A stretch of DNA of 33,450 nucleotides, taken from the NCBI RefSeq assembly GCF_017430385.1, contig NZ_JAFRNB010000100.1, positions 1-33,450 of the forward strand, read 5' to 3'. Below the pieces are notes generated by a model. It was not told the origin of the DNA, made no database searches, and was given only the letters and a program-made list of their open reading frames with translations. Positions within the stretch are counted from its first letter, which is position 1. Each line of letters begins with the position of its first letter. Positions 7,569-29,557 of the stretch are shown here, piece by piece. The translations under genes were made by a program, and so were the position numbers. The stretch comes from Treponema sp. (GTDB taxonomy: Bacteria > Spirochaetota > Spirochaetia > Treponematales > Treponemataceae).

Positions 7569-7604
7569 AAAGGAGCGGATGCGTTCGGCTCCTTTATTTT
7601 TTTT
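7569..7604. terminator. shared terminator of convergent genes
   Basis: AAAGGAGC (7569-7576) pairs with GCTCCTTT (7588-7595) around an 11-base loop, followed on the + strand by TTTATTTTTTTT. It ends the Abi_2 transcript. The T run overlaps the stop codon of the minus-strand VWA gene, which may also use the stem. Confidence 0.8.
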
Positions 7605-9435
7605 AAATCTCGTGTATTTTTCTTACAAGATGCCTCATCGCGTCCCTTGCGTTTGTGTCATACTGCCAGTGCTCATCGAACACTTTGATTACTTCGGGAT
7701 TTCCAGAATACCCCACTTCCAAAAGATAGAATTTCGATTTTTTTTCTTTTTGAGCGTTCACATCAGAAATAAGTTTGGCTGAAAATCCGCCCATTTCACC
7801 ATCGGTGACGGCAAGCACCTCGGCATTTTTCCACTCGTTTGTCTGCATGAGTTCAAGGGATTTTTCAAGTGCAGGGCTTGCATCCGTTCCGCCATTGAAA
7901 GATTTTCGCAAGAATTTTACAAGCTCCTCCAATCCTTTTGATTTTTCAAATTCTGACAAATCCTGAATTTCTATTTCTGTTGAGAAGGAAATCAAAAAGC
8001 ATTTGCGGTCTTCGTCAAGGCATTTTTTTGCAAGGGCGAAAGTGATTGTTTTTGCAACACGCTCAGGCGTTCCGTGCATTGAACCGCTCGTATCAACACA
8101 AATAATCACAGGTCCTTTCTGCTCAGTTTCTTTTACGGCTTTCTCTGTTTCTTCCTGCTTATGTTCTTCACGGATAGATTTCTGCTGATTAGTGTAAGAA
8201 TATGAAAGAAGTTTTTTTTCTGCAAATTTCTGGGCGAAATACAACTTCGTTACAGGATTTTGTGACATTGCAAGTTCTGTCGGCAATGCGGAAGAGATTT
8301 CCCCGCTCAACCGCAAGCCGCTGATTTGACCACGATATGCCGATTTCGGATGAAATTCTGTTTTGATTTCGACTTTATCCCGAAGTTCTTTTTCGTAGCG
8401 TTCTTTTTCTGCCTCCTGTCTGCCGATTAAGTCCGCAAGTTCTTTCAGAGATTTGTCATTTTCAAGCAAATCGGCAAAATCTTTGAGGATTTCAAAACCA
8501 TAGTCATCAAAATTGCCTTTCGACAAATCCCAGAGACGACCAAAATCCTTTATAAAGGGTTTAAGTAGCTCTTCAAGTTTTTTAAATTGCTCGATTTTTT
8601 TGTACAGTTCTTCAAGATAAGCACGGCGTTTTTTGTCGATTTCTTCAAGCTGCCATGCCATGTAGCGTTCGGTCAGAGATTTCTGCAAATCAGATTTGAG
8701 ATTTCGGGAAAGAATTTCAAATTCGTGGTTTAATTCTTCTTTGCTCTTTTTTGATTTCTTGTCTTTTTGAGATGGTGAATCAAGTTCGGCATGACTGTCT
8801 TTGTTATCCTGGACTTGCTTTTTGTCATCCTGATTTTGTCTCAGAATCTCATCGTATTCATTTTTATAAAAATCAAAATTGGCGGAATTATCTTTCCCGG
8901 TTAGAGTTTTCCCAAGTTCAGTTTTATGGCTTTCAAGATTTTTCAGTAACTCTTCGTTTGAAAGTCGCTGAGTTTTTTGAACAATAATATTTTCGTTATA
9001 AAAGGGATTTTCGGGATTCGTGATTTCAGTTTCTTCGTAGGAATTCTGCAGCGTATCAAGGATTTCGGTCTGAATCTGCTCGTTCAGCTGGGAATGATTT
9101 TTTGCAAAATCAAGCAAGTCTTTCTGAGTCTGATTTTGCGTCTGCAAAAATTTTGAAACTTCCGTGCTTTGAGAATTTGAAGCAAACGGCAGCTTTTCAG
9201 AATCAGGAAGCGTAGCGTCAAGAGCATCGGCAAGGCTTTGTGTCAGAGCTTTCCGCTCAATTTCATCGCCGAATTTTGATGAACCGAATTTCTCGAACTT
9301 ACGGATTTTCTTGTTCTCAGAATAGCTTTTTTTTACAACGCTTTCGTGAAAACTTCGCATCCTGTCTTTTTTTTCAAGCTTGCCCAATGCCAGAAGAGAA
9401 AATCTGCGTGATTTGTCGGAAATATGTTTTTTCAT
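7603..9435 (-). CDS. ViaA-like VWA-domain protein, partner of the MoxR ATPase
   Basis: A 610-residue soluble protein. The C-terminal VWA domain (about residues 435-610) carries the metal site: D-x-S-x-S in CVDTSGSMHG, the threonine in NGGTDASPAL, and the aspartate in VTDGEMGG. The middle third is strongly helical and charged (RYMAWQLEEIDKKRRAYLEEL), with a ViaA-like REAEKERYEKEL region and the YRGQISGLRLSGEISSALPTEL segment typical of ViaA. ViaA works with the AAA+ ATPase RavA, encoded 2 bases upstream here. Residues about 196-223 are encoded by an inverted repeat element (8769-8850) and look like an in-frame insert. Last gene of the operon; no ribosome site is visible, so translation is probably coupled to the ATPase. 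Confidence 0.85.
   Translation of the reverse strand: MKKHISDKSRRFSLLALGKLEKKDRMRSFHESVVKKSYSENKKIRKFEKFGSSKFGDEIERKALTQSLADALDATLPDSEKLPFASNSQSTEVSKFLQTQNQTQKDLLDFAKNHSQLNEQIQTEILDTLQNSYEETEITNPENPFYNENIIVQKTQRLSNEELLKNLESHKTELGKTLTGKDNSANFDFYKNEYDEILRQNQDDKKQVQDNKDSHAELDSPSQKDKKSKKSKEELNHEFEILSRNLKSDLQKSLTERYMAWQLEEIDKKRRAYLEELYKKIEQFKKLEELLKPFIKDFGRLWDLSKGNFDDYGFEILKDFADLLENDKSLKELADLIGRQEAEKERYEKELRDKVEIKTEFHPKSAYRGQISGLRLSGEISSALPTELAMSQNPVTKLYFAQKFAEKKLLSYSYTNQQKSIREEHKQEETEKAVKETEQKGPVIICVDTSGSMHGTPERVAKTITFALAKKCLDEDRKCFLISFSTEIEIQDLSEFEKSKGLEELVKFLRKSFNGGTDASPALEKSLELMQTNEWKNAEVLAVTDGEMGGFSAKLISDVNAQKEKKSKFYLLEVGYSGNPEVIKVFDEHWQYDTNARDAMRHLVRKIHEI
8769..8850. repeat. inverted repeat element read in frame inside the VWA gene
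   Basis: Two 27-base arms, 8769-8795 and 8824-8850, match as an imperfect inverted repeat (19 of 27 positions). The outer ends GAGAT and ATGAC/GTCAT are identical. The coding strand gives DNKDSHAELDSPSQ, a peptide typical of translated palindromic repeats (HAELDS). It resembles the dispersed GTCAT...GAACTTGATTC...CATCTC repeats common in bacterial intergenic DNA. Confidence 0.7.
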
Positions 9436-9437
9436 TG

Positions 9438-11450
9438 CTACAATGCCAGTTTACGAATCAAAAGAATATTAAATTCATGGTCTAAAGTCGTATAATCCGC
9501 TTCCCCAACATCAAAATCAAAGTAATAGGCAGCACCTTTTCCTTTTGTTGAAGAACTCCAGTATTTACCAGAAAGATCGAAATCATTTTTTTCATGGGAA
9601 TTCTCATAAATCTGCTTCAACTGCTCAATTGTCGGTAACATCCAGCCAGAATTATACGGCTCTGAAAAATCTTTGCCATATTCCTCAGCCTTTTTCTTTG
9701 CTCTTTTAAAATCAAAATCATTGAATTTTTCCCAAGCAATACCAAATGCTGAATCTGTCGTGTCGCCTTTCATACAAACTTTTGCAATAATGTCTGACTC
9801 AGCAACCTTAGACTTTGCTTTTTTGAAAGTACCGTTCTTCAAGATGATGTCACAAAGATCAAAATCAGATTTTACATTTGAGTCGGAAGCATAACGCTCA
9901 TGCTGTTCTTTGAGTTTGAGTTTTTTATCTTCCAGGATTTTGATTGATTCGTCAATTTTGTTCAGAAGAATCGGGCTATATCTGCTTGCATTGGCAAAGG
10001 CATTCTCGGTGAAAGGCTTTTCGTTCTCAGCTCTGAAATTCTGCAAATCCGCGATTTCTGAGTCAATTTGCTCAACAATCGGAGTGTATTCTTCTTTGTC
10101 AAAGGCTTCCATCAAGGTCTTTTTGGCAACTGGCTCGAAGAGTTTTTGTGAATTTTCATCATAATGAGCTGGAACAGCAGGAACTGGTTTTGTTTTGTTT
10201 ACTGTAAAGTCCCAATTACACCTGATTGTATCTCCAGTTCTAGTAAATGAATAATAATCATAATACTCTTTATTTGGCCTATATATATTATGATATGAAG
10301 AAGAATAGTTATCCCTTTCGCCTACACCAACATACCATGTTTCTCCATCGGAATTCCGTGTACACTCATAACATTTTTTGTTTCCGATTGTAACAATTTT
10401 ATCTTCGCTTGGCTTAGCAGGAACCTCGTCAACAAATTCAAACCATTTTTCGTCAACAGAATCCTTAAATTCATCAATCTGATCAGAAATATCTCCGATT
10501 GCAGTGGATTTGCCGATTCCGTTCTGTTTCAAAATCTTCTCGACAATTCCGCCTACTTCATCATGCTGCTTGTCGGTATTCCAGATAGCATATTCAATCA
10601 ACGAGCAGTCCATCAAATCCACGGAGTCACGACCGTTCAAGAACGCACTTGTTTTTAAGATATGCACGATTTTTTTCCAGCGGCGGTCTGAGACATAATA
10701 GTTTTCGCCATCTTCTGATTTGTGCTTTCCGTCCGCATTGAGCATGGTAAGTTCCTGGCGGATCGCTGTGATTACGGCTTTTGCTTCATCGCTAAGCACA
10801 ACTTTGTTTATTTCACCTTGCCATTTTTCCACATCACTTATTTCAAGCAAGGCAGATTTTTGTTCATCTGTAAGGACAAGCTCTTTGTTTCCGTCATCGA
10901 CGACTTTGAAAAAATCATCTTCGTTCGTAACAGGATTCACAAAAACTCGGAGGATAAACCTGTCCCAAAGTGCCTCAAGGCCGCGGTTCTTTTCGGGAAG
11001 CTCGTTTGAAGCAGAAGAAAGCGATACAAGCGGAACTTTTTCGACATTTTTTCCGTTGTGGAATTTCTTTTCGTTTATAATCGTAAGGAGAGTGTTCAGG
11101 ATTGCAGGACCACTCTTCCAGATTTCATCAAGAAAAGCGACTTTTGCACTTGGAAGATAGCCTTCGGTTTGTCGGTTGTAACGGCTCGGTTTTTCGTTGA
11201 GGGCAGAAAGGTCAACAGGTCCGCAGATTTCGTCTGGTGTGGAAAATTTATTCATCAGATATTCAAAATATCCGCCATTTTCAGTGGTAAATTTTCCGTC
11301 TTTATAAAAATCCTTGAATGCGGCGGCAATGCGACGGCTAATCATGGATTTTGCAGTTCCCGGAGGCCCCATAAAGAAAATACTTTTCATTCGATTTTGG
11401 AGCCGCACTTTCTTCCTGCAAGTCTTGTGGGCGTTCAATTGGTCGTTCAT
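9438..11450 (-). CDS. RavA-like MoxR AAA+ ATPase with C-terminal DUF1566-like domain
   Basis: A 670-residue protein. Walker A is GPPGTAKS at residues 28-35, Walker B VAFLDEIWKS with D108-E109, sensor SASNELPEKNRGLEALWDRFILR, and a RavA-type lid with SDRRWKKIVHILKTSAFLNGRD. MoxR/RavA ATPases work as chaperone-like remodellers with VWA partners. The linker is charged and helical; residues 602-670 read GWMLPTIEQLKQIY ... KYWSSS ... YYFDFDVG, the pattern of DUF1566/FGE-like (C-type lectin fold) domains. Only 27 residues precede Walker A, whereas RavA has about 45; the usual ER..AIRLALLAA segment is missing in every frame. The start overlaps the upstream membrane-protein gene by 113 bases (+1 frame relative to it). 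GGAG lies 11 bases before the ATG. Confidence 0.85.
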   Translation of the reverse strand: MNDQLNAHKTCRKKVRLQNRMKSIFFMGPPGTAKSMISRRIAAAFKDFYKDGKFTTENGGYFEYLMNKFSTPDEICGPVDLSALNEKPSRYNRQTEGYLPSAKVAFLDEIWKSGPAILNTLLTIINEKKFHNGKNVEKVPLVSLSSASNELPEKNRGLEALWDRFILRVFVNPVTNEDDFFKVVDDGNKELVLTDEQKSALLEISDVEKWQGEINKVVLSDEAKAVITAIRQELTMLNADGKHKSEDGENYYVSDRRWKKIVHILKTSAFLNGRDSVDLMDCSLIEYAIWNTDKQHDEVGGIVEKILKQNGIGKSTAIGDISDQIDEFKDSVDEKWFEFVDEVPAKPSEDKIVTIGNKKCYECTRNSDGETWYVGVGERDNYSSSYHNIYRPNKEYYDYYSFTRTGDTIRCNWDFTVNKTKPVPAVPAHYDENSQKLFEPVAKKTLMEAFDKEEYTPIVEQIDSEIADLQNFRAENEKPFTENAFANASRYSPILLNKIDESIKILEDKKLKLKEQHERYASDSNVKSDFDLCDIILKNGTFKKAKSKVAESDIIAKVCMKGDTTDSAFGIAWEKFNDFDFKRAKKKAEEYGKDFSEPYNSGWMLPTIEQLKQIYENSHEKNDFDLSGKYWSSSTKGKGAAYYFDFDVGEADYTTLDHEFNILLIRKLAL

Positions 11451-12231
11451 CCAGAATCACTCTCCAGCTTTGGGCAAGCATAATAAATGTGATAATCGTG
11501 CTCACGAAGATGAATGCAAGGATTGCAAAATTTGCCTGATTTTCAAACATTCTCATATAATAATATCCGCTAAACGCATGAAAGCCGAAGAATTCAAATG
11601 TAACAGCAGTCACGGCACCAAGAATAGCGAAATATGTTCTGCGGGAAAAATTGTTCCTTGTAAGAATCTTGAGCGACCAGTGCAAAAGAACAACGAGAGC
11701 CAAAAATGCAAGGAAAAGTCCTGAGGCGACTCTGAAATCAAATTTGGCGAAAATTAAAAGCCCCGCCAGAGCAAAAATCGCAAAAATCCGTTTTGTTCTG
11801 TAGGATTTTTTTGTCTTGGAAGAAAGAAAATAAGAAACAAAGCTGATTATGTAAAAACAAAGTATCATGGCATAAAACAGAGCCTCAAATCTGTTCTCAC
11901 AAAATCCATCTCTGTAGAATCTGTAATCTCGCGGAATGAATTTGTCAAAGTCTGGTTCACTCGTTATCGTCACCTGAATGTCCGTGTATTCAGATTTCTT
12001 GTTTTCACTAAGATTTTCATTTTCATTTTTTGAAAATCGCCCTGACTTTCTGAAACGGACTGGAGAAACCTTTCCTTCCAAAACTTTGTTGATTGCATTT
12101 TCAACTGTAAGTTTCACCTGCTCAAGTTCCTCGGCGGTTTTTGGGGTGTATTCTCTCTTTCGGGTTCCGTCTTCATTTGTTTTTTGGAAGGGAATATTTT
12201 TCATTTCTGTAATAAGGATATTGCTCATCAT
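11338..12231 (-). CDS. multi-pass membrane protein of unknown function
   Basis: A 297-residue protein with a soluble N-terminal part (about 1-112) and five predicted membrane helices near residues 116-136, 148-164, 170-187, 199-218 and 234-254. A 40-residue tail (DERPIERPQDLQEESAAPKS) overlaps the ATPase gene in another frame. CGGAGAAA lies just upstream of a double ATG (12231 and 12228); M10 at 12204 is a weaker alternative. It overlaps the preceding small membrane-protein gene by 59 bases. I do not recognise the family. Tight overlap with the RavA-like ATPase suggests it anchors or signals to that complex; this is inference. The N-terminal segment TAEELEQVKLTVENAINKVL looks like an amphipathic helix. 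Confidence 0.7.
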   Translation of the reverse strand: MMSNILITEMKNIPFQKTNEDGTRKREYTPKTAEELEQVKLTVENAINKVLEGKVSPVRFRKSGRFSKNENENLSENKKSEYTDIQVTITSEPDFDKFIPRDYRFYRDGFCENRFEALFYAMILCFYIISFVSYFLSSKTKKSYRTKRIFAIFALAGLLIFAKFDFRVASGLFLAFLALVVLLHWSLKILTRNNFSRRTYFAILGAVTAVTFEFFGFHAFSGYYYMRMFENQANFAILAFIFVSTIITFIMLAQSWRVILDERPIERPQDLQEESAAPKSNEKYFLYGASGNCKIHD

Positions 12232-12580
12232 TTTCTCCGTTCAGAGTGTAAGTGCCTTCCACATTCCCTTTGTAGATGATTTTCGGAGCCTCACATTCAA
12301 TTGAGTCTTTTGACTCCAGTTTCCAGCCTTTGTAAGAAAGCTCATCCTGGATGCGTTCAGAAATCTCATCTTTTGCGGTGAAATCATTTTTGAAATCTCC
12401 CGAATGATAATCGAAACCTTCTTTCAAAGAAATAAATTTCTCAGCGGCAAGATTTTCCATTTTCTTTGAAAGAGAGCTGAATTTAACCGAGTTATAAACA
12501 GAAATGCCTGTAATAACTCCCATACCTGCGCAGATTATTGCTGCGACTCCACCCAAGATTTTTTTTGCGTTCTTTTTCAT
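12173..12580 (-). CDS. small single-pass membrane protein of unknown function
   Basis: A 135-residue protein starting MKKNAKKILGG. One membrane helix at about residues 9-29 (GGVAAIICAGMGVITGISVY) is followed by about 105 soluble residues ending YPYYRNEKYSLPKNK. An upstream ATG (12589) would sit only 2 bases from the AGGAG ribosome site; the ATG at 12580 has a normal 10-base spacing and was chosen. It is the first gene after an internal terminator, so it leads the RavA/ViaA section. Helix orientation suggests a body outside the cytoplasm. No family recognised. Confidence 0.65.
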   Translation of the reverse strand: MKKNAKKILGGVAAIICAGMGVITGISVYNSVKFSSLSKKMENLAAEKFISLKEGFDYHSGDFKNDFTAKDEISERIQDELSYKGWKLESKDSIECEAPKIIYKGNVEGTYTLNGENDEQYPYYRNEKYSLPKNK

Positions 12581-12597
12581 AGTTCGCATTCTCCTAT

Positions 12598-12643
12598 AAA
12601 AAAAGGCTGTCCTTTCTGAAGTTTGATAACTTCTAGGACAGCC
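12598..12643 (-). terminator. strong terminator inside the island operon
   Basis: On the minus strand GGCTGTCCT pairs with AGGACAGCC, with an inner GAAGTT/AACTTC stem, followed by TTTTTTTATAGGAG. The T run is directly followed by the next gene's ribosome site. It separates the sigma-like gene (ends 12664) from the membrane/RavA/ViaA genes, so these need readthrough, antitermination or another promoter. Confidence 0.85.
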
Positions 12644-12663
12644 CCATGTTTTGTTATTTGTTT

Positions 12664-13800
12664 TTATCTAATCAGGAATCTCTTCGCAAAGTCTTTGTCA
12701 GATTCTTCGTTGAAGCCTGCCTTTTCGAATCTTTCAATGACATCATCATAAAAGCGCCCCAACTTTTTCGAGAAATAAGATTTTGCGTGATCAGCTTCCT
12801 TTTCCAAAGCCTGCATTTCCGGGAGTTTGTAATTTTCATCAGTGAACAGCTTATTCAAAATCGCTGAATCCAGAATACTTGCTTTTCGGAACAATTTTTC
12901 CAGATTCACAATATACTCGCTGTCTTCATTTGTGATTTTACGGACTTCCAAGAAACGACCGTCTTTGCCATCTTTTTTGGGTGCCAATCTTTGTGGGAAA
13001 TGCTTTCTGCACAAATCAACGGTCAGTGCTTTTGTGAAGTAAGTACGTTCTTCCAGTGATTCGTTGAATTTTTCCTCCAGTTCTGACTTTATCGCTTCAA
13101 GAAGCGATTCCAGCTGCGAATTTAATTCGAAGACTTTTGCTGGGCGCATGAAATATCCATTATGGATTTCTTCTACGCCGTTTTTCTCCTGTTTTTTATC
13201 AATGACATCAAACTCTTCGCTTTCATCATTTGTCTGAATCTGTGAAACAGTTTTTCTTTCCCAAAGAGCTTTCAATTCCACAACTTTTTCAATCGTGGTT
13301 TCAAGTGAGTCCGCAATCTTGATGTTGCGTTTTTTTTCATCCTTGAAACCGAATTTTTTATATTGCTCATCGAGAGCTTTGATTTTCTTTGCTTTTTTAA
13401 ATGCATCTTCGGGAATTTTCATGCCGCCATTTTTTTGTTCGGCCGAATCCTTTTGTTTAAGGAAATTCAACCGTCGTTTTATTGAAGAGCAGGCATACTG
13501 ACTGAACGACATTTTTCCGTTTGAATCGGATTTTTCGAAAGATTCAAGACAGTCCGCAGAAGTTTTGAAAATCTCATCGGAATAAGAGTTGTAGTTTACA
13601 TCTTCTGATTTGTCCTCGCCTTCTTCCGCACTTTTTGGAATGGTGACATAAACCTTGTACAATGCAATCTGGATTTTCTCCCTGACAGCCAGTCTTTTGC
13701 TCTCGACATTTGTTTGCCCTTGCAACGAGACATATTCCGCATAAAGGGCATTTATTTCGTCGAAGAACTTTTCTTTTGTGGTCTTTTCGTTCTCAGCCAT
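12664..13800 (-). CDS. divergent sigma-70-like factor (putative)
   Basis: A 378-residue soluble, charged protein. Residues 75-111 read like sigma region 2: DEIFKTSADCLESFEKS, a short linker, then GKMSFSQYACSSIKRRL, matching the D..Q.....L..A....D..G..FS.YA...I... pattern of region 2.2-2.4. Residues 127-201 resemble region 3: MKIPEDAF, IADSLETTIEKVVELKALW, then TVSQIQTNDESEEFDVID in place of the usual VSLD....ED...D. A helix-turn-helix-like C-terminus (about 330-365, KSYFSKKLGRFYDDVIE) could be region 4 but is weak. If correct it would redirect RNA polymerase to special promoters. Its ATG is 2 bases after the CARF-like gene with GAGGA over that gene's stop, so the two are translationally coupled. 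Alternative: another helical DNA-binding protein with chance similarity. Confidence 0.55.
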   Translation of the reverse strand: MAENEKTTKEKFFDEINALYAEYVSLQGQTNVESKRLAVREKIQIALYKVYVTIPKSAEEGEDKSEDVNYNSYSDEIFKTSADCLESFEKSDSNGKMSFSQYACSSIKRRLNFLKQKDSAEQKNGGMKIPEDAFKKAKKIKALDEQYKKFGFKDEKKRNIKIADSLETTIEKVVELKALWERKTVSQIQTNDESEEFDVIDKKQEKNGVEEIHNGYFMRPAKVFELNSQLESLLEAIKSELEEKFNESLEERTYFTKALTVDLCRKHFPQRLAPKKDGKDGRFLEVRKITNEDSEYIVNLEKLFRKASILDSAILNKLFTDENYKLPEMQALEKEADHAKSYFSKKLGRFYDDVIERFEKAGFNEESDKDFAKRFLIR

Positions 13801-13802
13801 AA

Positions 13803-14423: not shown

Positions 14424-14439
14424 TTTGGTTAAACCTCGC

Positions 14440-14700: not shown

Positions 14701-14712
14701 ATTTGTTCCTCC

Positions 14713-14750
14713 TGATATAATCAAGGGATGAAAAATTTTTGAGTTGACAG
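14713..14750 (-). promoter_or_regulatory. shared upstream motif, copy 2 (before the zinc/CARF/sigma genes)
   Basis: Minus strand: CTGTCAACTCAAA, six bases later TTCATCCCTT, then ATAT. It matches the copy at 29664-29701 at 27 of 37 aligned positions without gaps, including 13 identical bases in a row. It ends right at the AGGAGG ribosome site of the zinc-protein gene. Read on the + strand it contains TTGACA with TATTAT 17 bases on, an alternative antisense promoter. Confidence 0.5.
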
Positions 14751-21121: not shown

Positions 21122-23326
21122 TTAAATGTATTGAATCAATTCTTTTATAATATAAGTGGCAATTTTATTGTAAGTTGACACCTGCTGATCAGAATATTCA
21201 TTTAAATCTGAATGTCCTCGTTCTTCCAAAAGATTTGAAAGGTCAAGAATGAATTTATCATTATTTTTTGCCACATTCCGCAATTCCTCAGGCGAAAGCA
21301 AAAGCAAGAATGCGATTATCGCCGCGCCAAGAGTATCGCAGCCACCTCCACAGACAGCCTTGTTTATCCTTTTGTAGTTCACCGTCCTCAAAGAATCTGG
21401 CAGTCTTCCCGCTTTCAGGAAAAATCCAGCAGTTTTGATTTTTTCTGACGCAAAATCTGCATTACGCTCAGATTTTTCAGGCGGAGACACATATTTTAAG
21501 AGTGAAAGAACCGCACTTTCAAAGAATTGCTGCAAAAGCGAACAAGAACTTCCGGCAACAAATTTTTTTTCAGCAAGCGTTATCTTCCAGTTTATCATCT
21601 GGTTCACAAGATTTGTCGGGAGCCGGTTGATTACAGAATAGCCAAAATCATCATAAAGCTTCGTTTTTTGATTGTAACGCTTCTGTAAAATCTTTTGACT
21701 GTTTGAAGCGTTTATTTGGAAAGAATTTTTCGTTTTTTTGTTAATCGTCTCAAAATCATTCCCAAGTTTCACGTTCAAAAACCTGGAATATTCCATAATC
21801 TTTTGCAAAATATCCTTGAGTTTTTTCTCTGAGACATCAGTAGCCCTAAGTCCAGGCCCGTGCGCCATCAAAGTGTTGTCACGCAAAGATTTCAAATCAA
21901 AAATATCCCGAATAAAATCTGGGTCTTCCTGTGCAAGATATGCGAGCGGGCTTTCTGTATCGGAATTCGCATAGGCCAAAGTCAGGCACAAAAGAGGCGT
22001 AAGTTCAGGCTCGTCTCCCTTTCTTATTCCGTCAATTTTACCCTGATACACTTTGAGAAGTGACAAATCCTCGCTTGAAACATTAAAACCAAGTCTTTGA
22101 GCAAGCAGATAAAACAATCTTCCGCTATCAATTCCTTCCATCTCCGAAATTTTTTCTTTGTTGAGTTTTCTGGCCTCTGTATCAGCAAGGGCAATCAGTT
22201 CGTCTTCTTTACACGTATCGTTGAAATCGGCGTAATGTAATTGCAGCGCATATTCAAAAGCCGTATATGCGGAGTAAACAATCTTTTCGCCGACTCGTTT
22301 TATCTCTTCCCTCAGGTTTGAATCAGATTTCACGTTTTCCTGCAACTTCTGCAAGTTACAAACTGAATCATACAAAACCCTGGAAATTTTCGGATATTCA
22401 AAGCGGATTTTTTCTTCAATAAGATTTTCTTCTGATTTATTTTCCGTTTCAACATTTCCTTTTTGATAAATACTGCTTATCCATGGGAAAGAGTCCGAAT
22501 CAGATTTTTTTATGAATTCCGTAAATATATCTGATATTCCAAGCCCGGCCGCATCAGTTGAAAAAATATCTCCGGAAGAATTCGAGAATCCCTTTGTATG
22601 AACAAGAACAAGCTGGCGTGTCTTGATTTCTGCAGAATTTGATTTATCGTTCAGATGAACAGGAGAATTTTTGCCCGCAATTCTTTGGAATTTTCGGATT
22701 GCCCTTAGAATAAGAAATTTCTCAGGCTCAGAAGATTTTAAGCGATTGAAATCAAATAAATTCGCAGGGACTACGATATTTCCAACAAGAGTTTTTTCAT
22801 CAGGCAAATTGCACCGAGTCCGCAACAAATCTGGCTCTTCTTTTTTTGAAAAACTTCCACCAAAAGAATTCTGGGCAGGATGTTCCTCAACATAATCAAG
22901 GAAAAGACCTGTGTTCAAATCTCGCAAAAGCGAAACGACTTTTATCTCACCAGAATTTTTTTGCGCAAATTTATCAAGTTTGCCCCTGCCTCTCTCGGTA
23001 ATCGTGAAAGTCCTGTCATTCAAAAGGCCTTTTATTACAAGCCTGTTCTGAATGAATTCAACCGTCTCGGACTCCATACACAAATTTTCAGCCAGTTCTT
23101 TTGTTTTTGTGATTTTACAGTCCGAAAGCTTTAGAACCGTCCGTTCAAAAATATCCAAATCGACGGAATCAACCTTCACTTCCACCTGATAAAGCATACA
23201 AGGCCAGAACAAATTCGTTTTTGTAGAATCAATCGGAGAAAAACCTTCGTAATTCGGTTTGTTTGAGATAATTCCCTTACATTCTTTATCCAAAATATTT
23301 CTGAATTCTTGCAATCTTTCATTCAT
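21122..23326 (-). CDS. winged-helix protein with HEPN-like RNase motif (putative)
   Basis: A 734-residue soluble protein. Residues about 60-125 look like a winged helix: RTVLKLSDCKITKTKELAE, SETVEFIQNRLVIKGLL, then the wing RTFTITERGRGKL. In the middle, a helical region holds SLRDNTLMAHG: R482-x6-H489 fits the R-x4-6-H active site of HEPN RNases, preceded by long helices and followed by KKLKDILQKIM as in HEPN folds. A C-terminal helical part contains CGGGCDTLGAA. Function is unknown; a toxin-like RNase or nucleic-acid-sensing subunit is plausible. It sits 18 bases after the helicase and 12 before the McrB-like gene, so it belongs to the same complex or pathway. The HEPN call rests on one motif and on context. 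Confidence 0.5.
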   Translation of the reverse strand: MNERLQEFRNILDKECKGIISNKPNYEGFSPIDSTKTNLFWPCMLYQVEVKVDSVDLDIFERTVLKLSDCKITKTKELAENLCMESETVEFIQNRLVIKGLLNDRTFTITERGRGKLDKFAQKNSGEIKVVSLLRDLNTGLFLDYVEEHPAQNSFGGSFSKKEEPDLLRTRCNLPDEKTLVGNIVVPANLFDFNRLKSSEPEKFLILRAIRKFQRIAGKNSPVHLNDKSNSAEIKTRQLVLVHTKGFSNSSGDIFSTDAAGLGISDIFTEFIKKSDSDSFPWISSIYQKGNVETENKSEENLIEEKIRFEYPKISRVLYDSVCNLQKLQENVKSDSNLREEIKRVGEKIVYSAYTAFEYALQLHYADFNDTCKEDELIALADTEARKLNKEKISEMEGIDSGRLFYLLAQRLGFNVSSEDLSLLKVYQGKIDGIRKGDEPELTPLLCLTLAYANSDTESPLAYLAQEDPDFIRDIFDLKSLRDNTLMAHGPGLRATDVSEKKLKDILQKIMEYSRFLNVKLGNDFETINKKTKNSFQINASNSQKILQKRYNQKTKLYDDFGYSVINRLPTNLVNQMINWKITLAEKKFVAGSSCSLLQQFFESAVLSLLKYVSPPEKSERNADFASEKIKTAGFFLKAGRLPDSLRTVNYKRINKAVCGGGCDTLGAAIIAFLLLLSPEELRNVAKNNDKFILDLSNLLEERGHSDLNEYSDQQVSTYNKIATYIIKELIQYI

Positions 23327-23344
23327 TTTCGCTTTTCCTCAAAC

Positions 23345-26300
23345 TCATTCAAAATTAAGTTTCTTTGAATCAAGCACAAGCCCGTAATCAGCATCGTTTT
23401 TGCAAAGCTCGTAAAAATCATAAAGCTCAGGAACGGCAACTTTCGCAATCTGGCTCGTAAACAGATTTTGGTCACCAATTACCATAAGTGCCTTTTTCTG
23501 GCGGCTCATACTTACACAAAGACGATTCTTCGACATCAAGAATCCAAAAAGCCCCTGCTGCTTTTTTAATCCCTCTTCTTCGTTTCTTTGATGCTCTTTA
23601 TATGCGTTCTTAATTTTCATGTCATTTGCGGAACGAACTGCACACAAAATAACCACATCAAATTCCATTCCCTGAAAAGCATCAACCGTTCCAATCCGGA
23701 GCCTTACTCTTACCTCGCCATTTTTGTCAGGGGCGGTGTATTTGTATTCCTCCAGTATTTCTGAAATTCCGTCTTTGTTTTTTGCGTAAATACCATACGA
23801 ACAAAGCTGATTCTTTATCTCATTGCATTGAGCAGAATAAAAACTTATGATTCCGAAATTCATTTTCTTTTCCGAGTCAAAATCCAGCCAGGATTTCAAG
23901 AATTTCGCCGCTAAAATCGCCTCGCCCCTGCGGAAACGACTTCGGGATTTATTTAGGCTCTCAGAATCCTGCCCGGTGTCGTTCGGAAGTTCACACCAGA
24001 CAGCAGCCTTTCCTCTAATCAATGGCAGGTTGTGCACAAATTTAGACACTTCCAGGGGAGATTCGAATCCTTCGTTGTGAATCTCATAAAATTCCTTGCT
24101 CACAAAATTTCCCAAAAGCGGGTGCATTCGGTATTGCTTGTTGAGCGTGATTTTTTTGTCTATTCCAAGCTGCGAAAAAAGCCGTTCGAATGTACTTTCG
24201 TTCAAATATTTCACATCTTCGGAACTCGCTGACTCCGCCTCCATTTTTCGCTCAATTTCCTGGTCAACCTGTTGCGGAAGCTGCCTTTGGTCACCCACAA
24301 GAATTATATGCTTTCCTTTTGACATAGGAATCAGCAAATCTGGCGGGGACACTCGCGCGGCCTCATCGATTATCACATATTCATACGCTTTGCTTCCCTC
24401 TTCCATCGAGTCCAAACCAAGCTGCTTTCGCTTTTTCGAGATTTCCCTGCCTTCACTCTGCTGGACAGTCGCCGCAAAAACAGGATTATAGCTGAGCAAA
24501 GTGTTCGTAATTCCGTCTGGATTGTTGTTAAGCTCATAAATGAATTCCGCAAGAGCCAGATTTTTCTTCTCACTTGGATCAAATGGATATTGCTCAATGC
24601 GCTCGGAAACTTCCTTTACGATTTCAGAAATTGCTGAATTTTCCTTCTTTCGGCGATACTCAACAACTGGAAGATTTTCTTCTATTAAATTGAGCCGCAA
24701 ATTCTCCAAATCACCAAGAAAATCCAGATTCATTCCGTCTTTCCATTCAGATGCCTTTTTAAGACAATCAGGCACAAAAGAGTTTTCATTTTCCAGAAGA
24801 ATCCTCAAATACATCGCTCTTGCAGCTCCATCATCAGCAAAAGATTTTTCATCCGTGCGAAGAGCATACAGTGTTTTTAAAATCTCTTTGTTTTCCAAAG
24901 ATGAATTCCCTTCAATTTCACCAAGAATTGAATCGATTTTTTCGAGTATCGCTGGTGTTGTAAAACGCTCGCTTAGGTTTTTGATTCCGTTTAGTAATTC
25001 AATTTCCATCGCCGTGGACGGAGACTTGTGATAATCAAGAAACATAGAATAGAGATTCTGAAATTCAAGGGATTGTTTTACAGAAGGTGCATTTTCTTCG
25101 ATTTTCCTTGCAGTATTCCGGCTCCATTCCGCAATATTCTCCTGGGTTTTGCTAAGGCTCAGTTCATCCTCAGCGCTTGAACGACCGAATTTCACAGTCG
25201 GAAGTGCATTGATTGAGAGACGGCTCGCAATGTTGTAGACCGCATCATGCTGAAGAGCCGAGACAAAAATCTTTCCTGCAAGCTCGTTGCTTTTCTGAAA
25301 TTCTTCGTTCAAAGACTCGATAATTGCACAAATAACTGTGGTTTTTCCTGTTCCAGGAGGACCTTGAATTACTGCGATGTCGGAAGTGTTGAGCGCAATA
25401 CGAACTGCGTTTCTCTGGTTTTCTGTCGGATCATATTCAAAGACTTTTTTCTGCACTTTCATAGACATTTTTTTTACTGAACCCGACAAAGACGGGATAT
25501 TTGAATAATGTCCCTGCGTTCCATCCAAAATCAATCCCAGATTACTGATTGCACTTTTTCCGTTACCAATGTTAAGACGAGCACGGCGACGACGTTCAAC
25601 TTGAATTTTGTCACCAGCAATAGAAAGAACCAGGAACAATTCACCGTTATCCCCGCGTTTTGGAAGCCCTTTTACTCCAGATTTAACCGAAAGCTTTAAA
25701 TAATCAGAACCTATTTCAGTTATTTTGAGATTGCTCCATTTTTTTTCTTCGTCATCATTTTCTTTTTCTTCTTTTGATTTTTTTTCTCCAAGAATAGATT
25801 CAGCTTCAAGTTTTGCATCCACATCTTCAATCCATTCATCATAAGTCATAACGGGATTTTTAAGATATTCAGGAAGCTCACGAACTATATCAATGGTGTC
25901 AAAATCCATAGAGATATTTTCAAAATTGCAGGATTTCACGTTACTGAAAGAATAATTCACGACAATTTCATGGATGCCGTTATATTCAATTCTCCCCGAA
26001 ACAGCCGCATAACCGATTTTGCGTGCGTTTTCCAAAAGCCGCTTGCCGATTTCCGCATTATACTCATCCCATTTTCCGATGTAACTGTTGCCCGCACTGA
26101 GATTTTTCTGGATTTCCGTCGCATTCAGTTTTGAAATTGCTTCTTTTGTCAGATATGAAAATTTTATCCGTCCTTGAGCAAGATAAATTTGATTCTCATA
26201 ATTCCGGGGAAAATGATTTTTGATTCCGATCGTAAAAAGTACTGTCTCATCGTTGAGTTTTGAAGATTTTACAGCTAAATGCCATTCTTTGTTTACAAGC

Positions 26301-26818
26301 GTAAAAGAATCTTCCTCTTCAGCAGATTTTTTTGGATTCGCCATAAAAAGAAAATAAGGATTTGATGAACTGCCGAGGACAAACTGAGATGAAAGGATAT
26401 TGCACAAATCCTCTCCTGTTTTCTTGGAAAAATTTGCTTTTGCCGCAGAGCCGTTTTTTTCTTCATCGACAAAATCTTCGGTGACATTGATTCGAAGGCC
26501 GTCTTTAAAAATCTTTAATTCCCGGAAAAAAACAAGCTCAACCTCAACCTGTCCGTTTGAAAGAATATTTTCTACCTCAAAAAGATTCGTTTGTCCTGCC
26601 AGAAGCCTGTTGTCCAAGGACGGAGAATCAGAGCAGTCAACGAGACGAACCATTTTGAAAACAGAGCCATACTGAAAAATATACCCATCACCTGCATTCT
26701 TTGATTTTTGGATAGTGCCAAGAGGATTTTTGCTGTCGGTAATTTTTTCGTTTTTGTTTAAATAAGGCTCAAACCTGCATTTAAAATGCTCACCGTATCT
26801 TAATTCACTCAATTTCAT
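23345..26818 (-). CDS. superfamily 1 (UPF1/DNA2-like) helicase
   Basis: A 1157-residue protein. The C-terminal part is an SF1B helicase of the AAA_11/AAA_12 type: motif I QGPPGTGKTTV (about 484), motif II IIDEAARVSPPD (about 815), motif III GDQRQLPQQ (about 838), motif IV QYRMHPLLG (about 893), motif V VDAFQGMEFDVVIL (about 1043), and motif VI LCVSMSRQKKAL (about 1105). The N-terminal 440 residues contain beta-rich segments, including an OB-like stretch (LKLSVKSGVKGLPKRGDNGELFLVLS) before the core. A long helical insert separates motifs I and II (about 540-790). It would unwind DNA or RNA with ATP. GGAG overlaps the kinase stop just upstream, so the two are coupled. Confidence 0.9.
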   Translation of the reverse strand: MKLSELRYGEHFKCRFEPYLNKNEKITDSKNPLGTIQKSKNAGDGYIFQYGSVFKMVRLVDCSDSPSLDNRLLAGQTNLFEVENILSNGQVEVELVFFRELKIFKDGLRINVTEDFVDEEKNGSAAKANFSKKTGEDLCNILSSQFVLGSSSNPYFLFMANPKKSAEEEDSFTLVNKEWHLAVKSSKLNDETVLFTIGIKNHFPRNYENQIYLAQGRIKFSYLTKEAISKLNATEIQKNLSAGNSYIGKWDEYNAEIGKRLLENARKIGYAAVSGRIEYNGIHEIVVNYSFSNVKSCNFENISMDFDTIDIVRELPEYLKNPVMTYDEWIEDVDAKLEAESILGEKKSKEEKENDDEEKKWSNLKITEIGSDYLKLSVKSGVKGLPKRGDNGELFLVLSIAGDKIQVERRRRARLNIGNGKSAISNLGLILDGTQGHYSNIPSLSGSVKKMSMKVQKKVFEYDPTENQRNAVRIALNTSDIAVIQGPPGTGKTTVICAIIESLNEEFQKSNELAGKIFVSALQHDAVYNIASRLSINALPTVKFGRSSAEDELSLSKTQENIAEWSRNTARKIEENAPSVKQSLEFQNLYSMFLDYHKSPSTAMEIELLNGIKNLSERFTTPAILEKIDSILGEIEGNSSLENKEILKTLYALRTDEKSFADDGAARAMYLRILLENENSFVPDCLKKASEWKDGMNLDFLGDLENLRLNLIEENLPVVEYRRKKENSAISEIVKEVSERIEQYPFDPSEKKNLALAEFIYELNNNPDGITNTLLSYNPVFAATVQQSEGREISKKRKQLGLDSMEEGSKAYEYVIIDEAARVSPPDLLIPMSKGKHIILVGDQRQLPQQVDQEIERKMEAESASSEDVKYLNESTFERLFSQLGIDKKITLNKQYRMHPLLGNFVSKEFYEIHNEGFESPLEVSKFVHNLPLIRGKAAVWCELPNDTGQDSESLNKSRSRFRRGEAILAAKFLKSWLDFDSEKKMNFGIISFYSAQCNEIKNQLCSYGIYAKNKDGISEILEEYKYTAPDKNGEVRVRLRIGTVDAFQGMEFDVVILCAVRSANDMKIKNAYKEHQRNEEEGLKKQQGLFGFLMSKNRLCVSMSRQKKALMVIGDQNLFTSQIAKVAVPELYDFYELCKNDADYGLVLDSKKLNFE

Positions 26819-26824
26819 AACTCA

Positions 26825-28294
26825 TTACTCCACAGTCAAAATCACTGAATATCCATAACGATTTTTGTATTTCAGGCGGACAAAAAAATTTTCATTATCA
26901 ATATTGAATTGCATTCTTCCCGCAAGGATTTTTTCATCCGCATTATCTTGCGAAATTACAATTGCTTTTTCATCATCAAGAGGTCGAAGTTCCAGAAGAT
27001 TATTTTCAAATTTTACTCCGGCAAGGCCCTCATCTCCTTTTAAAATCCTCAGCGGCTCAAAAACTCTTGATGGCAAAACCGTTTCATTTTTCCTGATTTC
27101 ACGCACGAATAAATGAGACGGATTTTCAGCCCCATGCAAATAACTTTTTGCAATTAAAATCTTGCCCCGTTTTTGAGAGCAATACGGACAACAAAAATTT
27201 CCCTTTTCCTCATAGTCATAATAATGAGTCATTCCGCAAGCAGGACATTCGACCGTTAAATCAGCGCTGTCCGAAAATGCTTTTGACCATCTAGCCAAAG
27301 GTGTCCGCAACAACGGCTTCGTGTGCCCTTCAGAAAAAGTATTGTCAAAAAGGGCGAAAAGTGTTGGCGTCAAAAACAGTGAATTAGCCTGCTCCATGCT
27401 TCCGTATGAATTTGAATCATCATTCTGGTCAAAAATCCACGGAAATGTGCCGTCGTCACAAAAATTGTTCGGGGCCGTTTTCTGCTGCCTTAACACGGAC
27501 TTTGACCATCCTTCATCTTCGTTTTCTTCGCCAAGAACTTTGCTTCCCTTAAAAGGATGCATCATCGTGATTACATAAAAAGCTACCACAGAAAATGCAT
27601 AGGCATCAGAAAAAATCGTGGAATGACTCCGCCCTGTCACAATTTCCGGTGCACCGAAGCCCGGAGTAAAGTAAGTTTTGCTTTTTCCGGCAAAATTTAT
27701 GTTGTCGGCATCAATCAATCCAGCAGAGAATTTTTCCCCATCAGCCAGGAACATAAGGTTACCGCTGGAAATGTCTCCATAGACAAGACCTGCCGAGTGC
27801 AAAGAAGCAAGCAATTCTGAGATTTTATAAAGAGCCAGAAGCCGTGCCCGCAAACTGCCTGTTTTGCAATAGTTTGCCCAGATTTCTGGTTCAGGAACAG
27901 GTTCTCCGTCCGCATTTTTTAACCATGACGGAATTTCTTCTTCTATTTTTCCATGCAATTTTAGAAATGAATCAAAACTTTTCATTCCGTTCATAAAAGA
28001 CATCACATAGCCAGCGTGACTTTTTAAAATCGCAAGAGGTTTGGAGAGATTTATGTTTTCTGGAATAGGAAGAAGCCTGATTGCCTTGAGTTTTTCATAC
28101 TCTGCCCTTACCGCAGAATCGTCCTGTTCAAGATTTCCTTCCCTATCAGCAACAAGTTTTACGGCAATATCCAAATCGTTTTTCACATGATAGACGGCAC
28201 CTTGTCCGCCCTGCCCGATTTTTTCACCAAGCGTATATTTGAGATTATCTGTGTCTATGACTTCGAATTTTTCATCTTCCTGATTTTCTTCCAT
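26825..28294 (-). CDS. TerY-P-type serine/threonine kinase with zinc ribbon
   Basis: A 489-residue protein. The kinase domain (about 17-310) has the glycine loop GQGGQGAV, lysine 46 (IAVKL), catalytic VYGDISSGN with D174 and N179 (YGD instead of HRD), metal-binding D195 in LIDAD (instead of DFG) and FGAPE. Residues 350-372 form a zinc ribbon, C350-x2-C353 and C369-x2-C372. The last 110 residues are beta-rich. YGD/DxD variants are normal in the kinase group that occurs beside TerY-type VWA proteins, as here with two VWA genes directly upstream. Usually a PP2C phosphatase completes that triad; none is in this window. It likely phosphorylates components of the same operon (inference). Confidence 0.85.
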   Translation of the reverse strand: MEENQEDEKFEVIDTDNLKYTLGEKIGQGGQGAVYHVKNDLDIAVKLVADREGNLEQDDSAVRAEYEKLKAIRLLPIPENINLSKPLAILKSHAGYVMSFMNGMKSFDSFLKLHGKIEEEIPSWLKNADGEPVPEPEIWANYCKTGSLRARLLALYKISELLASLHSAGLVYGDISSGNLMFLADGEKFSAGLIDADNINFAGKSKTYFTPGFGAPEIVTGRSHSTIFSDAYAFSVVAFYVITMMHPFKGSKVLGEENEDEGWSKSVLRQQKTAPNNFCDDGTFPWIFDQNDDSNSYGSMEQANSLFLTPTLFALFDNTFSEGHTKPLLRTPLARWSKAFSDSADLTVECPACGMTHYYDYEEKGNFCCPYCSQKRGKILIAKSYLHGAENPSHLFVREIRKNETVLPSRVFEPLRILKGDEGLAGVKFENNLLELRPLDDEKAIVISQDNADEKILAGRMQFNIDNENFFVRLKYKNRYGYSVILTVE

Positions 28295-28315
28295 AATTTA
28301 CCTTCCTTATACATA

Positions 28316-28786
28316 TCACACCGGGGAAAAAGATTCTAAAGCCGCTTCCAGATCCAATGCAGAGAATAAAAATCTGTCCTTATCGGCTACAACAAGATTT
28401 TTCGGGAAAAAATTACTTGCCATGACTTCATCAAAATCTGCGCCAATGCCAATAAGCCTGAAATTTAAGTCTTCAGTTTCTCCGATTAAATTCCGAATCT
28501 GACCAGCATCTTCATCAATGAATCCGTCGGTCAGCAAAAGAATATTTTTGAGATTTTGAGTCTGGATGAATTCGACCAGTTTTGAAAGATTTGATTTTCC
28601 GCCTGCGTCAAAAGAAAGCCCTGAATTTCCAGAAGGAATCTCTTCAACCGACTCCGACCAGGAATAGAAATTGAATTCAAATCCTTCGTGAAGTAAAAGA
28701 TTCCTGCACACGCTTTGAATTATGTCATCCTTAGACAAAACACTCATACTGCCAGAACAATCAATTATTACCGAAATTTCTATCAT
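28316..28786 (-). CDS. small VWA-domain protein (second of two)
   Basis: A 156-residue protein that is little more than one VWA domain. The metal site is D9-x-S11-x-S13 (IDCSGSM), and D86 sits in LLLTDGFID; the usual threonine of the middle motif seems replaced by serine 64 (GGKSNLS). It begins at once with the first strand (MIEISVIIDCSGS). VWA proteins of this size in TerY-P operons are thought to act as metal-dependent adaptors. It follows VWA-1 after a 66-base gap with a hairpin, and precedes the kinase by 21 bases. GGAG lies 9 bases before the ATG. Confidence 0.85.
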   Translation of the reverse strand: MIEISVIIDCSGSMSVLSKDDIIQSVCRNLLLHEGFEFNFYSWSESVEEIPSGNSGLSFDAGGKSNLSKLVEFIQTQNLKNILLLTDGFIDEDAGQIRNLIGETEDLNFRLIGIGADFDEVMASNFFPKNLVVADKDRFLFSALDLEAALESFSPV

Positions 28787-28804
28787 TTTTACAAGCTCCA
28801 GACT

Positions 28805-28850
28805 AATAGAGTTGTCCGAAAACCTTGCCGGCTTCCGAACAACTCTATTA
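28805..28850. other. long hairpin between the two VWA genes
   Basis: Arms 28805-28824 and 28831-28850 pair over about 18 of 20 positions (AATAGAGTTGT / ACAACTCTATT plus CGGAA and GCC inner pairs) around a six-base loop. It starts right after the VWA-1 stop. There is no T run on the minus strand, so it is more likely an mRNA-stabilising or processing structure that sets the ratio of VWA-1 to downstream genes than a terminator. Confidence 0.6.
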
Positions 28851-28852
28851 TT

Positions 28853-29557
28853 TTACCAGTAATTCTGTGTGGTTACCACATTTTTTGGAGATTCAAGAAG
28901 TTCTTTTGGAGCTTCGATTTTCACGACCTGATTCGAAGTCTGGGAACGGGTTCGGGTTGTAACAGTCATTGTGACAAACTTGAAAAATTTGTGCATTGAT
29001 GCAGCATCTTTTGCATAGAACAGTGGATTTTCTGTTCCGGCGATGAATTTTTTGAGGACAGACTCGTCTGCGCCACTTCCGATTGCCATAGCCATTCGGT
29101 CACACTTTGAGCTTCGTCCGCTGGAAATGAAATCCTGCATCGGCTGTTCCCAATTATCGTTTGGTTCCCCGTCAGAGCAAAGAATTACCAGAGGCCTGTA
29201 TGCCCGTCTAGAAGTAACTTCCTTATCTTCTATCATGTCTTTTGCCATTCTAAGGGCTCCTCCCATCGGAGTCATTCCACCCGCCTCAAGTTTTACAAGC
29301 TCTACTTTTGATGCGTTTGTGTAAGGGAGAGCAAGTTTTACACCTTCTCTGCCAAAAGTGATAACCGAAACATCGATTTCAGTTTCAAGCTGCTCCTCAT
29401 GAGCAAAATCCTTGAGCATTTCCCTGACCGCGCTGTCAAGTTCCTCGATTTTAGATTGCTCCCTGCCTCCATCCATGCTTGAGCTTGTGTCCAGCAATAA
29501 AACGACTGGAAGTGGTTTTGCCTTTGCAACTGTGTACTTTGATGGATCGAATGCCAT
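28853..29557 (-). CDS. TerY-like VWA-domain protein (first gene of the island operon)
   Basis: A 234-residue VWA protein. The full metal site is visible: D23-x-S25-x-S27 in LLLDTSSSMDG, T96 in GGMTPMGGAL and D129 in LCSDGEPND. The GGMTPMGGAL and WEQPMQDF segments and the length match the TerY group linked to tellurite/stress and conflict operons. The tail from residue 200 (TTRTRSQTSNQVV) is basic and looks flexible. AGGAGA lies upstream with normal spacing. It leads the operon, behind the promoter at 29625-29653, palindrome 29602-29622 and shared motif 29664-29701. Confidence 0.88.
   Translation of the reverse strand: MAFDPSKYTVAKAKPLPVVLLLDTSSSMDGGREQSKIEELDSAVREMLKDFAHEEQLETEIDVSVITFGREGVKLALPYTNASKVELVKLEAGGMTPMGGALRMAKDMIEDKEVTSRRAYRPLVILCSDGEPNDNWEQPMQDFISSGRSSKCDRMAMAIGSGADESVLKKFIAGTENPLFYAKDAASMHKFFKFVTMTVTTRTRSQTSNQVVKIEAPKELLESPKNVVTTQNYW

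Follow-up and report, generated by a model that had tools for sequence, protein, structure and literature searches.

The closest described counterpart of one half of the island studied here is the Type III-A CoCoNuT, a computationally predicted system with a duplicated VWA gene and the order VWA-VWA-kinase-CnuH-CnuE-CnuB-CnuCD, in which CnuB has an NxD motif and a long coiled coil, the DUF2357 protein contains Hsp70/HEAT-like parts but no PD-(D/E)xK nuclease, and CnuE carries a wHTH and two HEPN-like motifs, RxxxxH and RxH (Bell et al., eLife 2024; PMC11090510). For the control of such genes, three sensor systems invite comparison. RtcR is a CARF-AAA-HTH activator of sigma54 transcription, often found beside Type II CoCoNuTs (PMC11090510, PMC4012209), and Calp consists of a SAVED-Lon protein (CalpL), an anti-sigma factor (CalpT) and a sigma factor (CalpS) (PMC12751052). 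Csa3-type CARF regulators are likewise predicted to regulate the transcription of defence genes (PMC4012209).

We studied positions 7603-29557 of contig NZ_JAFRNB010000100.1 (Treponema sp., GCF_017430385.1), within a window, the whole stretch of DNA analysed, of 33,450 nucleotides. All genes and elements described below lie on the minus strand. The initial annotation listed thirteen genes, but missed a small ORF (14440-14724), so that there are fourteen (g1-g14). It saw in them one composite system outside any named defence type. The evidence does favour a multi-part, input-controlled defence island, but one that combines separable parts, namely a Type III-A CoCoNuT, a CARF-sigma pair and a RavA-ViaA-like set. 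The sigma70-family protein (SIG) likely switches on the CoCoNuT as well as the unit to which it belongs, through a promoter-like sequence common to the two.

Genes g1-g7 are a Type III-A CoCoNuT, a class described in 2024, here without PP2C. The TerY-like VWA protein g1 (28853-29557; PF00092, 7.5e-14) is followed by a short second VWA protein, g2 (28316-28786), which has no Pfam match and is called from a D-x-S-G-S motif seen by eye and from relatives that occupy the corresponding position in other loci; by eye it also lacks the middle threonine, as in extended Type III-A CoCoNuTs. The Ser/Thr kinase g3 (26825-28294; PF00069, 1.8e-13) ends in zinc-ribbon-like CxxC pairs, and g4 (23345-26818) is the UPF1-like SF1 helicase CnuH (AAA_11/AAA_12; PF13087, 7.3e-34), which precedes CnuE, g5 (21122-23326). 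The latter has a wHTH-like N-terminus and two HEPN-like motifs, from which its HEPN-type character is called, with no Pfam HEPN match to the protein; the RGH motif is common to locus L069, whereas the first motif is R-x6-H here and R-x4-H in L005 and L069. CnuB, g6 (18329-21109), is an McrB-like NTPase with MNQDE as its NxD motif, an AAA_5 score of 21.2 bits, just below the cut-off of 22, and an N-terminal region of ~450 aa that is heptad-rich and coiled-coil-like as judged by eye. The last gene of this block, g7 (14769-18329; CnuC/CnuCD), matches DUF2357 (PF09823, 3e-10), with no PD-(D/E)xK nuclease match in Pfam; its two best Foldseek matches are BiP Hsp70 (E 5e-5 and 2.5e-4), and ARM/HEAT proteins are among the further matches (E 0.19 and worse). 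PADLOC names the systems MkoA (g4, 4.7e-80), PDC-M26A (g6, 8.2e-27) and mads, which we judge to be shared-domain matches and not the systems themselves.

The TerY-P-like character given to this block in the initial annotation applies to the VWA and kinase members only: PP2C is absent from the profile matches of the island genes and there is no room for it between g2 and g3, the place at which L005 carries a PP2C-like protein (by eye). Unlike the Type III-A CoCoNuT of PMC11090510, the island lacks both PP2C and a CARF-D-ExK (Can/Card1) protein and adjoins a CARF-sigma70 pair. Such a pair has no mention in the text of that paper, whose sigma mentions are of sigma54.

The new part of the island is its middle, in which a stand-alone CARF protein stands with a sigma70-family protein, both of which had been correctly guessed. 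The Csx1-like g9 (13803-14423), which as a CARF protein would be a nucleotide sensor, is 206 aa long and matches PADLOC CARF2--CARF at 8.7e-77 over residues 1-205; it has neither a Pfam match nor an effector domain, PADLOC giving CARF/Csx1 models only, and the D-x-T-x-G motif is invariant in 22 of 22 CARF sequences. SIG (g10, 12664-13800) starts 2 nt after the CARF gene. Alone, g10 matches nothing in Pfam or NCBIfam, while the profile of its family, iterated with CARF ORFs excluded, joins the sigma70 family at E 1.4e-11 with support for regions 2, 3 and 4, and fold comparison agrees. One relative passes Pfam Sigma70_r3, and Cas-linked members carry a region 3.2-like S-L-x-x-P-[IV]-G..D..ED. 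Ahead of the pair lies the small Cys-containing g8 (14440-14700, the ORF being listed from 14724), with a likely ATG start after GGAGGT and with relatives adjoining CARF-sigma in three other loci (L006, L078 and L089).

CARF and SIG genes form a conserved pair. Of 71 CARF places found, 64 entered the analysis, without G071, G254 and five that were weak or partial; L006 and L007 from another search, whose six further loci are, judging by length, contigs already in the set, bring the total to 66 CARF genes. A full-length neighbour ORF is present for 58, and in all 58 it belongs to the SIG family. In the remaining eight, four pairs are cut by a contig end with a SIG fragment kept (L054, L056, L072, L096), two retain a remnant (L063, L064), one lies at a contig end (L083) and one has no neighbour (L102). 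A wider search beyond the host's family listed 31 of 392 genomes, 21 of them from the family; at six places in five of the ten others, SIG follows CARF in five and was not detected at L167, weaker matches (G587, G333, G349, G390, G454) being left out. Among 40 pattern matches in viral contigs there was no CARF relative.

A promoter-like sequence, TRTCAACT-N16-CTWAT, precedes many CARF-sigma pairs and, independently, the operons behind them. In the island the form TGTCAACT-N16-CTTAT stands ahead of the CoCoNuT operon (29672-29701, ~115 nt before g1) and again within the end of g5 (21152-21180, 42 nt before g6), and the form TGTCAACT-N16-CTTGA before the CARF-sigma cassette (14721-14750). Throughout the 3.3-Mb assembly (89.5% complete), the two search forms match only these three sites. 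Since the pair and the CoCoNuT operon share a promoter-like sequence that is rare in this genome, the pair would likely switch on the CoCoNuT once a signal is sensed. This sequence, which ties parts of the island together, had gone unseen in the initial annotation.

The spacing of the genes is mostly tight, as had been claimed, but two gaps stand out, one of 66 nt between g1 and g2 with a 21-pair hairpin (28787-28852; -30.8 kcal/mol, z -6.45), and one of 74 nt between g10 and g11 with a terminator-like hairpin followed by T7 (12602-12645). Because these hairpin gaps break the short spacing, the island probably comprises three transcription units.

Behind the terminator-like hairpin lie g11 (12173-12589), with an N-terminal hydrophobic stretch, and g12 (11338-12231), with several, which had been read as two membrane proteins, a reading consistent with these stretches as seen by eye; L060 carries relatives of both. 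They are followed by g13 (9438-11450), a RavA-like MoxR ATPase with a C-terminal Lcl_C-like domain, and by the ViaA-like VWA protein g14 (7603-9435; PF13519, 9.3e-10), so that the three VWA proteins (g1, g2, g14), the three NTPases (g4, g6, g13) and the kinase of the initial annotation are all confirmed. Like RavA and ViaA, g13 and g14 match the respective NCBIfam models (6.7e-77 and 4.6e-76), but they score far below the curated equivalog cut-offs (259.6 vs 681 bits and 257 vs 500 bits), and on these profiles we class them as RavA-ViaA-like only. Unlike RavA-ViaA, too, most relatives adjoining CARF-sigma add HEPN-type motifs; g14 lacks the N-terminal HEPN-type motif seen in its relatives, and the part of g13 ahead of Walker A is unlike that of its relative in L063. 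Inclusion of this set in the SIG regulon here is doubtful and the weakest link of our reading, because the genes lie behind the terminator-like hairpin, have no such promoter-like sequence and would be reached only by read-through.

The grouping seen in the island is not due to chance, since g1-g7-like blocks adjoining CARF-sigma recur. Four other genomes have the pair immediately ahead of a complete CoCoNuT with VWA, kinase, CnuH, CnuE, CnuB and CnuC, and the expected co-occurrence of at least five families thus holds for CARF-sigma with g1-g7-type genes, but no longer once RavA-ViaA is included. Elsewhere, as annotated from one representative per gene cluster, the pair adjoins RavA-ViaA(-HEPN), TerY-P, Abi_2, type I restriction-like or Cas6-Cas10 genes, although most pairs do not adjoin Cas10. 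All three parts occur together in none of 64 other loci within the stretch taken (~10 kb per side or less), a count that leaves out one contig apparently with relatives of g7 (P0028) and g10 (P0019). CARF-sigma, CoCoNuT and RavA-ViaA are separable modules, exchanged in Treponema. Although all genes lie on one strand with mostly tight spacing, a single new machine built from all thirteen genes first listed is hardly credible, given that g1-g7 are a described system, that a terminator-like hairpin lies inside and that the three modules are not found together in the other loci covered.

The same exchange of modules could suggest that CARF-sigma and the CoCoNuT are independent neighbours, with the pair regulating only itself and RavA-ViaA; defence genes cluster anyway, 12 of the 66 CARF genes precede RavA-ViaA genes, and in this island the CoCoNuT comes first and the pair after it. 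We regard this as unlikely, however, since the promoter-like sequence stands before the CoCoNuT and cnuB, with no other match of the search forms in the genome, the pair heads complete CoCoNuTs elsewhere, and of the two gene sets in question RavA-ViaA is the one without the sequence in this island. It is distinctly unlikely that TRTCAACT, instead of being part of a promoter read by SIG, serves some other regulator as its operator or is a TTGACA promoter in reverse. TGTCAAC reversed does contain TTGACA, and an 11/12 sigma70-like match runs on the plus strand over the promoter-like sequence before the cassette, but of 58 regions, 22 and 18 have the forward orientation against 3 and 1 with the reverse, and a -10-like element lies at fixed spacing downstream with none upstream. 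Further, the TATCAACT variant reversed is not TTGACA, and the variant tracks the SIG clade among the labelled rows of the SIG tree (22 of 58, the label being taken from a short stretch, which leaves the window's own row, whose place is unsupported, unlabelled). That sequences of one class precede the pair as well as the next operon, and vary with the SIG clade, also argues for promoter recognition and makes it very improbable that SIG is a sigma-derived blocker of RNA polymerase, acting as an anti-sigma-like or shut-off effector upon a CARF trigger, even though the SIG family has diverged strongly (mean column identity 27% across 34 members) and region 3 seems, by eye, to be missing from some of its short members.

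With SIG read as an activator, the pair would be a ligand-gated sigma factor controlling defence genes, similar to RtcR and Calp in its working but of another build. A CARF sensor would, as in RtcR, be tied to sigma-dependent transcription of defence genes, but RtcR is one protein acting on sigma54, whereas the pair comprises a separate CARF2-group CARF protein and its own sigma70-family protein; the fusion to NtrC-like AAA+ and HTH is absent from g9 in Pfam and PADLOC. As in Calp, cyclic nucleotide sensing would end in a freed sigma factor, but from two genes and not three and with most pairs seen not beside Cas10; Pfam, PADLOC and NCBIfam profiles match neither SAVED nor Lon in the island genes. 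Csa3 is predicted to act directly, via its wHTH. Its predicted CARF-based regulation resembles that proposed here, but the CARF protein of the island matches CARF models alone.

In the mechanism that we propose, the CARF protein would bind a nucleotide signal made or released in phage attack and, once ligand-bound, would free or activate SIG. SIG would then recognise the promoter-like sequence before the pair and the CoCoNuT, giving more SIG and more CoCoNuT by positive feedback, after which the CoCoNuT HEPN protein may cut RNA. As to the source of the signal, there is no Cas10 in the window, the best match in the genome (89.5% complete) being partial, at 24.3 bits and under the cut-off, and no SMODS cyclase was found in this genome. 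Among 274 genomes, 132 match PF22335 at E <= 0.001, many through short partial GGDEF-looking matches; 48 exceed the curated cut-off, and we counted the 19 with at least 38 bits over most of the domain, G265 being left out; the 19 also do not include G017, in which a contig (L098) ends in a fragment of Cas10.

More broadly, we lean slightly towards an exchangeable Spirochaetota cassette, a CARF protein with its own sigma70 and the promoter code TRTCAACT-N16-CTWAT with variants, that puts CoCoNuTs, RavA-ViaA-HEPN, TerY-P, Abi_2 and type III CRISPR under a single type of nucleotide signal. It would be the bacterial equivalent of an inducible transcription programme of immunity, and in most carriers its signal would come from neither Cas10 nor a SMODS cyclase. 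The presence of the CARF-sigma cassette also suggests that RavA-ViaA-HEPN operons likely serve in defence. If the proposal is true, a CARF-paired sigma factor would be the control point by which CoCoNuTs, costly systems predicted to cut RNA, are kept off; the promoter sequence would then allow further members of the regulon to be found, and a reporter of the promoter-like sequence ahead of g1 could reveal which ligand is bound by CARF proteins that do not belong to CRISPR systems.

The island consists of 14 minus-strand genes on contig C92, whose 33,450 bases make up the entire window (parent assembly 3.3 Mb, completeness 89.5%), and is flanked by an Abi_2 gene (6539–7522, plus strand), convergent to it, and by a pfkB gene (29716–30651) at the other border. 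Its GC content is 0.37–0.44 vs. 0.43–0.48 for most flanking kilobases, and annotation of the window genes bore out the gene families named in the initial annotation. Outside the island, the stretch 32643–32897, upstream of a gene at 31723–32610, holds a cobalamin riboswitch on the minus strand (73 bits) and matches TD-2 RNA on the plus strand (52.7 bits). In a single ORF at 745–3438 (minus strand), adjoined by FecCD and periplasmic-binding genes, a CobB/CobQ-like glutamine amidotransferase is fused to an ABC transporter ATPase.

Genes 1–7 are a Type III-A CoCoNuT. In PMC11090510, the source of the names CnuB, CnuC, CnuE, and CnuH, CoCoNuT systems comprise an McrB that has a coiled coil and an NxD motif, a UPF1-like helicase, TerY-P genes, a fusion of a DUF2357 protein with Hsp70-like and HEAT-like parts, and a wHTH protein containing a pair of HEPN domains, the second carrying an RxH motif; in extended Type III-A the VWA is duplicated, the second being shorter and lacking the middle threonine. 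Similarly, g6 (CnuB) contains MNQDE, g7 (CnuC) matches the DUF2357 profile, g4 (CnuH) is an AAA_11/AAA_12 helicase like the UPF1-like one, and g2 resembles the second VWA in being short and, by eye, without threonine at the middle position. HEPN-like motifs in g5 (CnuE) are R-x6-H plus a conserved RGH. An AlphaFold model of g7 (31 sequences, mean pLDDT 75.9) gave two BiP Hsp70 structures as top Foldseek matches (E 5e-5 and 2.5e-4); the weaker matches, from E 0.19 on, include many importin, ARM, and HEAT proteins. However, PP2C is absent from the window set, unlike the TerY-P part of Type III-A CoCoNuT. Between both VWA genes, at 28787–28852, lies a hairpin of 21 pairs (−30.8 kcal/mol) without a T run. 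For a relative of g7 (P0028, 73%) and for one of g10 (P0019, 65%), the longest contig is in each case given as 71,877 bases, so the CoCoNuT-CARF-sigma neighborhood may be conserved there.

The pair formed by the stand-alone CARF gene (g9) and the sigma70-family gene (g10, SIG) is conserved, whereas its neighboring genes are not. The CARF profile matched 58 of the 274 genomes of the host's family, four of them solely via weak partial matches, and 66 CARF genes from 65 loci were sampled for the pair analysis. All 58 CARF genes with a complete neighbor are followed by a SIG-family member, at a spacing of −32 to +23 nt. Beyond the family, the pair is present in five of six places fetched; in one of these five, L166, RavA, a small ORF, and ViaA lie behind the pair, and TGTCAAC sequences precede both CARF and RavA. 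In L063 and L064, only a SIG remnant is left, partly read in frame with CARF, and the RavA-ViaA adjoining the remnant in L063 is still open. A conserved ORF of about 140 amino acids (MKYFMVTAKCGHVGKNNYYKG...; 13 members, no Pfam match for the one member tested) precedes CARF in L005, L007, L044, L045, L046, L047, L050, L053, L054, L055, L056, and L057, and follows SIG in L058. Among the matches listed for open-access full texts on CARF plus sigma, CoCoNuT, TerY-P, MoxR-vWA, and RavA-ViaA-HEPN, titles and abstract beginnings indicated no CARF-sigma70 pair; passages of PMC4012209, PMC11229360, PMC12409355, and PMC12751052 treat sigma54/RtcR, Calp, ring nucleases, or other effectors. The novelty of the pair is provisional, because this search covered open-access papers.

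TerY-like VWA plus kinase or PP2C-like genes follow the pair in seven loci (L005, L044, L048, L061, L066, L069, and L079), and in four of these (L005, L061, L069, and L079) the stretches further on hold a complete CoCoNuT (CnuH, CnuE, CnuB with MN[QN]DE, and CnuC). In L044 and L048, a CnuH-like helicase is accompanied by no more than a weak CnuB-like match, without CnuC, and the L066 stretch stops at a contig end. A CnuH-like helicase comes directly after the pair in L067 and L071, Abi_2-cluster genes in L060, L081, L090, and L095, a TerY-P set with a DUF6884 gene follows in five loci, Cas6 and/or Cas10 in five, and other genes in the remainder. The pair directly precedes Cas6 and Cas10 genes in L097, L098, L099, L100, and also L101, Cas6 being in the first four; these type III CRISPR operons have a sigma-like gene at their head and, by eye, ordinary TATAAT-like upstream sequences. 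Upstream of the pair, seven loci have a member of a gene cluster represented by a type I restriction HsdR-like protein. Since close SIG relatives on a quick-method tree precede different systems (L065 and L066; L071, L073, and L085), the cassette seems to have been exchanged between operons.

RavA-ViaA follows CARF or the pair in 12 loci (L063, L065, L068, L070, L073, L075, L076, L080, L085, L086, L091, and L093), with intervening genes in L086 and L093 and adjoining the SIG remnant in L063. The first 11 have a ViaA-like protein with a HEPN-type RN-x3-H motif, and in most of these operons, a candidate new RNase defense operon, a small ORF of 94–108 amino acids sits between RavA and ViaA. Of 12 long ViaA-like proteins, 11 carry this HEPN-typical motif near the N-terminus, that of the window being the exception, and an RN-x3-H-type motif occurs in six of ten small ORFs of one cluster. 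In the window, g11 and g12, with relatives only in L060 among the loci compared, intervene between SIG and the RavA-like g13 and ViaA-like g14; SIG and g11 are parted by a hairpin (−22.4 kcal/mol) with a T7 tail, and the region between them contains no TRTCAAC. Also, g13 is unlike its L063 relative in the stretch before the Walker A motif. The RavA-ViaA set of the window may be decaying or under separate control.

A promoter-like sequence connects the CoCoNuT and the pair. CTGTCAACTCAAA-N5-TTCATC occurs in the window exactly twice (0.03 expected), at the CoCoNuT head and before the CARF-sigma pair, and TGTCAACT-N10-TCAT matches only these two places in the whole genome. TRTCAACT-N16-CTWAT likewise has two whole-genome matches, P1 before g1 and P2, 42 nt before cnuB; the reversed pattern, run as a control, matches nowhere in it. 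Across the 274 genomes, the pattern is found in 56, at most four times per genome, the reversed control scores as well, and the pattern is no marker by itself. Around the pairs, the shorter TRTCAAC is enriched: counts are 23 ahead of the pair (14.8 kb) and 18 from SIG to the next gene (7.3 kb), against 267 elsewhere (1893 kb). The SIG-to-next-gene regions, on which the definition of the sequence did not draw, show 8.7-fold enrichment (p 1e-11) relative to the upstream regions of other genes, where 99 kb contain 28 copies, and 11-fold (17 in 6.2 kb) with 50 non-redundant loci. Because TGTCAAC reversed contains TTGACA, an orientation test was needed, and it favored the forward reading. TTGGAAACTTT replaces TRTCAAC at TerY-P/DUF6884-linked pairs or close kin (5 of 65 regions vs. 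0.05 expected), the three sequence variants require two changes on the SIG tree (22 of 58 rows labeled), and all of these sequences are absent from 32 of the 65 regions. L004 (7460, plus strand) and L006 (98 and 2267, plus strand) have additional TGTCAACT/CTTAT-like sequences that lie kilobases before the pair and may mark other regulon members.

The D-x-T-x-G motif, which presumably binds the ligand as in Csx1 relatives, is invariant in all 22 aligned CARF proteins. Cas6/Cas10 after the pair in some loci fits a cyclic oligoadenylate signal. However, profile searches of the window's genome, at 89.5% completeness, gave no convincing Cas10 and zero SMODS matches; among the 54 strong-CARF genomes, SMODS is found in seven and Cas10 in at least eight (PF22335 match of at least 38 bits over most of the domain). 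We propose that nucleotide binding by the CARF protein would control SIG, which would bring polymerase to TRTCAACT/CTWAT promoters; by acting there, the pair would amplify itself and switch on the CoCoNuT.
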